Part shown: piece after piece, positions 29,849-31,587 of the stretch | Layout of the letters: the number at the start of each line of letters is the position of its first letter | Position numbering within the stretch: the stretch's first letter is position 1 | Assembly: GCA_029262035.1 (NCBI GenBank) | Contig: JAJDAE010000101.1 | Coordinates: forward strand, 1 to 39,407 | Source of the DNA: Candidatus Zhuqueibacterota bacterium | GTDB taxonomy: Bacteria; Zhuqueibacterota; Zhuqueibacteria; Oceanimicrobiales; Oceanimicrobiaceae | Reading direction: 5' to 3' | DNA: 39,407 bases | Program-made: the position numbers and the translations under genes | Notes under the pieces: model-generated | Database searches by the model: none | The model's input: only the letters and a program-made list of their open reading frames with translations | What the model was told of the DNA's origin: nothing

Positions 29849-30373
29849 ATGGTAAGAACAGATATTCGTCCTACAGGCATTGAACGTTTTTTTTCCGAAG
29901 ACGATATTATAGTGAGTAAGACCAATCTAAAAGGGGAAATGACCTACGTTAACGACATTTTTATGGAAATCGCAGGCTATGAGGAGCACGAACTGATTGG
30001 CGTGCAGCACAATCTTATCCGCCACCCGGATATGCCGCGTTGTGTGTTTAATCTATTGTGGGATACAATTGCCAGCGGAAAAGAAATTTTTGCTTATGTA
30101 ATTAATATGTGTAAGAATGGTGACCATTATTGGGTATTTGCACATGTTACGCCAACATTTGATGACAACAATAACATCATCAGTTATCACTCAAACCGGC
30201 GGGTACCGGAACGTAAATCGGTGGAGCTCATTAAGCCAATTTATGCAGCACTCTTGGCAGAGGAAAAGAAGCAGGCTAACAAGAGAGAGGAAGTTCAAGC
30301 TTCAACGCAAGTACTTGTAGATACATTGGAGAATCAAGGGGTTTCTTACGACGAATTTGTTTTTAGTATTTAG
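29849..30373 (+). CDS. Aer-type PAS domain sensor protein
   Basis: A 174-residue soluble protein consisting of one PAS domain (about 15-125) plus a short helical tail. The PAS domain is the Aer kind: HNLIRHPDMP (54-63), LLWDTIASGKE, NGDHYWVFAHVTP with Trp95, and SNRRVPER. In Aer this fold binds FAD and reports redox state or oxygen. Here the protein lacks any HAMP or signalling domain and ends at residue 174. The next gene, 35 nt downstream, encodes a soluble chemoreceptor signalling protein, so the two may form a split aerotaxis receptor. AAAGGTGC precedes the ATG. A TATAAT box lies at 29732-29737, but no good -35 is seen. Confidence 0.88.
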   Translation: MVRTDIRPTGIERFFSEDDIIVSKTNLKGEMTYVNDIFMEIAGYEEHELIGVQHNLIRHPDMPRCVFNLLWDTIASGKEIFAYVINMCKNGDHYWVFAHVTPTFDDNNNIISYHSNRRVPERKSVELIKPIYAALLAEEKKQANKREEVQASTQVLVDTLENQGVSYDEFVFSI

Positions 30374-30408
30374 GGATGAGCCACAAAAATTTGAAAAGGA
30401 ATTGAATA

Positions 30409-31587
30409 ATGAAAAAAGACATGAGCGAAAAAGAAGAACTTAAGCTCTATCGTGAATGGATAAAAAAAATAAGTCAGGTTTGTGCGAGTTCGGCAAAAGG
30501 GGATTTAGAAGCCAGGCTTATCGGACTGCCGGAGCATGATGAAGTCAACAATGTCTGTTTGAGTATAAACAGGTCGTTGGATATCGCCGATGCGTTTGTA
30601 CGGGAGGCTGGCGCTGCGCTCATGGCAGCCAGTGAAGGCAAATTCTACAGAAAGGTGTTAACGCGAGGCATGTTAGGCTCCTTCTTGCTGGGTGCGAGAC
30701 AAATAAACGCCGCCAGCGAAGGAATGGAACGGCAGGCGCATGCCCTGGAAAAAGCAGAAGAAGAGCGAAAACAGTTGCAACAAGACTTTCAGAGTTCATT
30801 AAATGGTGCGGTTGAAATGATGACCGAGACTGTCGGAGAACTCAATGCCGCAGCCGATGGATTGGTTGGAGCTGCTGCCCAAACATCCGAAGATGCAATT
30901 ACTGTTGCCACGATTTCAGACCATACCGCTCGTAGCGTTGATTCTGTGGCCAATTCCACGAATGAACTGTCATTAGCCATCAATGAGATTGGTAAACAGG
31001 TTACGGAGTCGACTCGAGTTGCAAAAGAGGCCGTGGGTGAGGTTGATAAAAGCAGTACCCACATGACTGAATTATCCGAGGTTTCTGCAAGAATTGACGG
31101 CATTACCGACCTTATTACCGGAGTGGCCGGTCAAACCAATTTGCTTGCATTAAATGCAACTATTGAAGCTGCGCGAGCAGGAGATGCTGGCAAAGGGTTT
31201 CGCGTAGTAGCTGCTGAGGTTAAAGAATTGTCTAAAGAAACAAGAGATGCCTCGGAGTCAATTGCCACAGAAATTGAATCAATTCAGGCTGCCACTACCC
31301 AGGCTGTAGCTTCAATTGCTGAAATAAGCAACACAATTTCGCAAGTCGATAATATTGCTACGATAATTGCCAGTGCAGTTGAAGAGCAAAATGTAACGAC
31401 AGCGGAGATCAGTACCAATATTGCCGATGCTGCAGAAGGGTCAAAAAATGTTGAAAAAAGAATCGCCACTGTTAAGGAGGCTGCTAAAAAAACCACTGAC
31501 TTTGCATCAACGGTTAAGGAGGTTGCATCGGGACTTGCCGGCCAGGCGGATGAATTAGGGAAAGTGCTTGAGCAGTTTTCAGGTTGA
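30409..31587 (+). CDS. Soluble methyl-accepting chemotaxis-type signalling protein
   Basis: A 392-residue cytoplasmic chemoreceptor without transmembrane helices. The N-terminal 130 residues resemble HAMP-linked helical units ([40 protein letters not shown]). The remaining part is a long coiled-coil hairpin with the conserved tip [31 protein letters not shown] (given here by its position 241-271; tip residues QTNLLALNA), which binds CheA and CheW. The domain ends without a CheR-binding pentapeptide. Being paired with the Aer-like PAS gene, it probably receives its input from that protein. GGAATT stands before the ATG. No CheA or CheW is in the window. Confidence 0.9.

Follow-up and report, generated by a model that had tools for sequence, protein, structure and literature searches.

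Two adjacent genes on the forward strand of contig JAJDAE010000101.1 (assembly GCA_029262035.1), a 39,407-nucleotide stretch of DNA from a Candidatus Zhuqueibacterota bacterium that was analyzed as a whole and is referred to here as the window, very probably encode one bipartite and entirely cytoplasmic receptor for energy or redox taxis, of the CetB/CetA kind but soluble. The first gene (29849..30373) codes for a CetB-type, Aer-like PAS protein of 174 residues, predicted to act as a flavin adenine dinucleotide (FAD) redox sensor, and the second (30409..31587) for a CetA-type chemoreceptor of 392 residues without a transmembrane helix; FAD binding, contact between the two proteins, a role in taxis with its direction of response, and residence in a signaling array are the components of this reading that we infer. 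The coordinates, reading frames and 35-nt spacing given for the pair by a first-pass annotation of the same DNA proved exact. The split arrangement is already known from CetB and CetA, and the missing membrane anchor is what differs here.

Results

PAS models are the sole Pfam matches in the first protein, which has no output domain, and its best sequence matches in the PDB are structures of Escherichia coli Aer (the PAS domain, 8dik, E=5e-26, and the full-length protein, 31cj, E=2e-23), bearing out its initial description as an Aer-like PAS protein devoid of output. An AlphaFold2 model derived from 29 family sequences (mean predicted local distance difference test score 95.8) contains three helices beyond the PAS core (residues 122-140, 145-163 and 167-173), and its top Foldseek match is again the Aer PAS domain 8dik (root-mean-square deviation 1.0 Å over 124 columns), with the FAD-PAS domain of NifL ranked next. 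The eight FAD-contact residues that section 2.5 of the report on Magnetospirillum gryphiswaldense CetB2 gives (His54, Asn55, Arg58, Phe67, Trp71, Asn86, Val100 and Arg117; PMC12442639) are all present in the window protein under identical numbering. They include His54, Asn55 and Arg58 within residues 54-58 (30008..30022), Phe67 and Trp71 within residues 67-71 (30047..30061), Asn86 (30104..30106) and Arg117 (30197..30199), and among relatives His54, Arg58, Phe67, Trp71, Asn86 and Arg117 are kept in 48/48 PAS rows with a partner assigned to the soluble class. This residue identity points to FAD binding by the window protein.

The highest 19-residue hydropathy mean of the receptor is 0.97, and the protein is therefore predicted to have no membrane helix; the anchor typical of CetA, which in Campylobacter jejuni consists of two transmembrane helices, is absent. 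A misannotated start concealing such a helix was considered and rejected, since any start further upstream is excluded by a TGA in frame at 30403, which precedes the receptor ATG by two codons (the open frame runs to 393 residues, one codon more than the gene). The TGA lies within the 35-nt intergenic spacer (30374..30408), as does the ribosome-binding-like sequence AAAAGGAA; a similar sequence, AAAGGTG, is found upstream of the PAS gene. Both reading frames are intact, but they are different frames with a stop between them and do not make up a single-chain Aer.

The signaling domain of the receptor (MCPsignal, PF00015, 106 bits) occupies residues 200-363 (31006..31497) and has the glutamate of its hairpin tip at residue 253. 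The N-terminal 146 residues align with those of 12 relatives, anchored ones among them, and nine positions are invariant over the 13 sequences (G31, R36, N54, D58, E66, R81, G87, G90 and F92). A profile of this N-terminal alignment matches the poly-HAMP kinase 9trk (E=9e-16) and Aer2 (3vol, E=2e-5), as well as single HAMP structures below significance, and two of the relatives, L014 and L012, exceed the Pfam cut-off for HAMP (25.5 and 28.0 bits against 25). AlphaFold2 places helices at residues 7-29, 44-75 and 90-145, the arrangement of two consecutive HAMP domains. Profile matches, helix pattern, Foldseek and invariant residues thus define a tandem (di-)HAMP module at about residues 7-101 (30427..30711), a likely site of PAS docking and signal relay. 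Given these HAMP matches in profile and fold, and the lack of a membrane helix, the receptor belongs to the soluble di-HAMP type and lacks its own input domain. The first-pass annotation had correctly described it as free of membrane helices and of a sensor domain, but had overlooked the tandem HAMP module in its first ~105 residues. Aer2 of Pseudomonas aeruginosa carries its own haem-PAS within a single chain. Among the gammaproteobacterial receptors, the anchored CetA of Methylomonas (L036:6544-8010) carries a further domain at its C-terminus, the chemoreceptor zinc-binding domain (CZB, PF13682, 51.7 bits). By alignment, the receptor of L022 is extended at its C-terminus in a comparable way, and a pair bearing CZB may combine flavin and zinc input.

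The two families are found together almost without fail. A scan with the PAS alignment of a species-genome collection (described as covering 84,980 species) yielded 53 loci, of which 49 (L010-L058) and the window make up a first set with 55 full-length PAS open reading frames; L059-L062, with weak or partial PAS matches, are not among the 55. A receptor with a matching N-terminus adjoins 53 of these frames and the other two (L016 and L033) reach the contig end, so that every testable PAS gene (53/53) has a receptor beside it. In a less selected sample of 385 alphaproteobacterial genomes each partner was searched for separately, scoring the best 9 or 10 first-look candidates per genome, so that further copies are possible. 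The PAS family occurs in 59 of these genomes and the di-HAMP receptor in 57, all of them among the 59; two genomes have the PAS protein only and none the receptor only. A receptor lies no more than 2.5 kb away from 83 of the 91 PAS matches, downstream in 79 cases and upstream in 4, and 80 of the 83 receptors adjoin a PAS gene. A search for conserved adjacency had been proposed with the first-pass annotation, and it finds the pairing conserved. Among 82 genomes of the window's own phylum two carry the PAS family, and these are also the only two with the receptor, adjacent in both, and adjacency extends to the Gammaproteobacteria, Campylobacterota and Actinomycetota, with spacers that range from overlap to tens of nucleotides. 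Together with homology to the experimentally shown CetB2/CetA2 and CetB/CetA pairs, this adjacency lends good support to the earlier proposal of a single receptor made up of both proteins.

Variants of the layout were also observed. The receptor precedes the PAS gene found at six gammaproteobacterial loci, four of which (L025, L026, L028 and L029, from Thiodiazotropha-like symbionts and a Chromatiales genome) are PAS-receptor-PAS triads that resemble cetC, cetA and cetB. In Austwickia, two soluble pairs (L023:2082-3736 and L023:5875-7420) lie within ~5.5 kb; in both, the receptor has ~300 residues and comes after the PAS gene. A test for fusion of the two families, which left out pairs with a PAS-HAMP distance above 900 nt or with a PAS gene only downstream, accepted no true case among 125 pairs. 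Two natural fusions ("Rosetta stone" cases) flagged by this test, L145 and L199, were judged artefacts because each PAS stretch contains one TAG stop. The fused ancestor implied by the "complementary losses" of the first-pass annotation is hence not supported.

Anchoring was called by a hydropathy threshold of 1.6 over 19 residues, which suits strong helices and is not a dedicated predictor; in the alphaproteobacterial count, values from 1.3 to 1.6 were called ambiguous. On this basis, 41 of the 83 alphaproteobacterial receptors have no membrane helix before the HAMP module, 41 have one and one is ambiguous, and all 41 soluble receptors have a PAS gene in the fetched stretch. The ambiguous case, L218 (G331:C4), has a borderline hydrophobic stretch of 1.54, would count as soluble in the fusion test and the PAS-residue comparison (cut 1.6), and may represent a transitional state from one form to the other. 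Counted per PAS gene with a neighboring receptor (n=53), the first set has 11 soluble and 42 anchored receptors; per distinct receptor the figures are 11 and 38, four receptors doubly counted through the triads having been merged for the receptor tree. Soluble receptors also occur in the Actinomycetota (L011, L019, L020 and L023). The missing anchor is therefore common and not private to the window.

The phylogenetic trees of both proteins carry long-branch warnings. The window PAS protein falls in a clade of 14 (100/98; starred in the tree) whose partners are soluble in 10 cases, anchored in three and unknown in one; the partners of another clade, of 41, are anchored in 39 cases, soluble in one and unknown in one, and on the supported branches three or more changes of label are unavoidable. 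In the receptor tree the window groups with soluble receptors from the Actinomycetota, five in number (91/83), and no fewer than two switches must be assumed. When 115 PAS rows (of 125, rows with fewer than 140 PAS residues being excluded) are placed in a larger, quickly built tree, it needs 10 switches, only two of them forced, and the rows nearest to the window by path belong to soluble and anchored pairs alike. PAS columns 39, 116, 172 and others differ between the rows with soluble and anchored partners (115 rows), but nothing can be concluded from them on the anchoring of the partner, because supported branches offer only two independent contrasts. The other pair of the phylum (G024/L043) has an anchored receptor, weakly placed in the receptor tree (59/43), and a PAS protein in the other main PAS clade. 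Vertical inheritance of the pair within the phylum is thus disfavored, and separate gain of its two pairs is likely, though unproven.

The genome (5.3 Mb in 372 contigs) encodes six MCP domains, including that of the window receptor, two CheA proteins, CheW, CheR, CheB, CheD and CheX on one contig, and a FliF-family match; hence, a chemotaxis pathway and probably flagella are present. Another of its receptors (L074:15039-17549, on contig C247 of genome G000) is a soluble protein of 836 residues that has a globin at its N-terminus as well as a PAS domain. It is a second cytoplasmic receptor of oxygen type, and the CheA beside it, the second of the genome, carries two CheW domains and a receiver. 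The signaling hairpin of the window receptor aligns without gaps with that of this globin-PAS receptor, whereas the three membrane receptors aligned with them (five of the six MCPs in all) fit only with gaps, which within the hairpin come in multiples of seven residues; the placement of gaps in the coiled coil is ambiguous. This pattern suggests a common array for the two soluble receptors, and makes mixing with the soluble receptor more likely than mixing with the membrane ones. It also bears on the best surviving alternative, according to which the soluble receptor would join mixed arrays with membrane receptors of equal length and so sit at the membrane after all, the loss of the anchor meaning little. 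The genome does encode membrane receptors, and CetA2 and CetB2 are described at polar-lateral regions alongside other receptors (PMC12442639), but the hairpin alignment speaks otherwise, and we regard such mixing as unlikely.

Little else in the window bears on the pair. Its near neighbors, which we take by eye from the sequence to be MgtE, RecO, SfsA, a transporter, GreA and MutY, give no functional hint. The G+C content of both genes is not unusual relative to the window, and promoter and terminator scans yielded sites in no clear excess over shuffled sequence.

Discussion

The comparative analysis favors a soluble receptor of two chains. We envisage that FAD in the PAS protein would follow the redox state of the cytoplasm, as residue identity with CetB2 suggests, and that the protein would dock on the N-terminal tandem HAMP module of the dimeric receptor, as conserved pairing and homology imply. 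By the general mechanism of HAMP receptors, the docked state might then switch the HAMP conformation and, through the coiled coil, the hairpin tip, which would set the activity of CheA via CheW, in an array that most likely lies in the cytoplasm.

The two genes might instead be merely co-transcribed, with the PAS protein regulating something else and the receptor served by another partner, much as FrzCD of Myxococcus is likewise a cytoplasmic di-HAMP receptor (PMC12077210). A few lone PAS and receptor genes in the Alphaproteobacteria would fit this view. The near-obligate, two-way pairing in that same class and the adjacency seen in three further groups argue against it, however. The tail before the HAMP module, short and with charges of both signs, also seems to differ from the DNA-binding, bZIP-like region of FrzCD, and we deem mere co-transcription improbable. 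That the receptor is a decayed CetA, no longer functional after losing its anchor, is highly improbable: the presence of the pair in just 2/82 genomes of the phylum would agree with decay and makes selection in this lineage hard to test, but the frames are intact, the hairpin tip and HAMP residues are conserved, and soluble versions recur, PAS partners included, in the Alphaproteobacteria and in the Actinomycetota.

Several observations nonetheless weigh against a bipartite cytoplasmic receptor as outlined above. A Pfam scan of the window receptor itself gives no HAMP domain, so that the assignment is carried by the family alignment and by weak structural matches; the top Foldseek match of the N-terminus, the poly-HAMP region of Aer2 (3lnr), is one of the latter (E 0.06, prob 0.99). 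A partner is missing within 2.5 kb for 8 of the 91 alphaproteobacterial PAS relatives, and 3 of the 83 receptors have no PAS gene, although this falls well short of the regular occurrence of PAS homologues alone that the first-pass annotation had named as contrary to its proposal. In M. gryphiswaldense, CetB5 likewise lacks a CetA (PMC12442639). The PAS differences between soluble and anchored partners are inseparable from ancestry. No artificial CetA-CetB fusion rescued a C. jejuni cetAB mutant, although in that study wild-type taxis was not regained with any cetA construct (PMC3558505). Finally, the CetBA mechanism may not carry over unchanged, since C. jejuni CetA is anchored, with its two transmembrane helices, and CetB is membrane-associated (PMC2628428).

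Reuter and van Vliet have remarked that CetB is soluble, and that the reason for a membrane-placed CetA therefore remains unknown (PMC3558505). The natural anchor-free pairs of the window genome, of the Alphaproteobacteria (41/83 receptors) and of the Actinomycetota make the purpose of that placement testable. If soluble pairs do work, the redox signal cannot depend on the membrane location of CetA, and such pairs would provide small modular parts for redox-controlled signaling. More broadly, about half of the alphaproteobacterial CetBA-type receptors, those of the Actinomycetota and the window pair could all be wholly cytoplasmic two-protein redox receptors that sit in cytoplasmic arrays and sense a soluble redox pool and not the membrane-bound respiratory chain, with anchored and soluble forms interconverting around the same PAS-HAMP docking module and the anchor being unneeded for signaling; we put this generalization forward tentatively, as possible but short of probable. 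Dozens of adjacent HAMP/PAS pairs, with nine conserved residues, are reportedly mentioned in the abstract of Elliott et al. (2009), the paper by which the family was defined from its HAMP residues. Our literature search, whose coverage did not extend to that paper and any soluble members it may list, returned no text describing a membrane-free CetA.

Comparison with known systems

The "split aerotaxis receptor" of the first-pass annotation, which did not recognize the CetB/CetA kind, is not a newly split Aer, as split pairs of a FAD-PAS protein and a chemoreceptor have been published at least since 2008 for C. jejuni (PMC2628428) and are also described in Magnetospirillum. E. coli Aer (8dik, 31cj) has the same PAS fold and FAD pocket but is one protein with a membrane anchor, whereas the window encodes two proteins and no anchor. 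Aer2 (3vol, 3lnr) and FrzCD (PMC12077210) are, like the window receptor, soluble receptors in which tandem HAMP domains feed a signaling hairpin; in FrzCD the N-terminus binds DNA. In C. jejuni, as Elliott and DiRita describe it, a PAS protein and a membrane receptor split Aer between them, and such pairs are mentioned in 22 species (PMC2628428). CetA, CetB and CetC resemble the window pair in spreading the domains of Aer over two adjacent genes and in serving energy taxis via the PAS protein, and differ in the second PAS gene, cetC, upstream of cetA (PMC2628428, PMC3558505). In M. gryphiswaldense, Herz et al. describe four CetBA pairs in one bacterium, and report that CetB2 contains FAD and interacts with CetA2, the pair steering aerotaxis with an oxygen-repellent response (PMC12442639). 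As in the window, a stand-alone FAD-PAS gene there directly precedes the gene of a sensor-less receptor, and the same eight FAD-contact residues are present; unlike the window receptor, CetA2 is described as linked to the inner membrane. In the portions of the literature examined, every CetA is in fact membrane-linked, and it is in this respect that the CetA-type receptor of the window stands apart.
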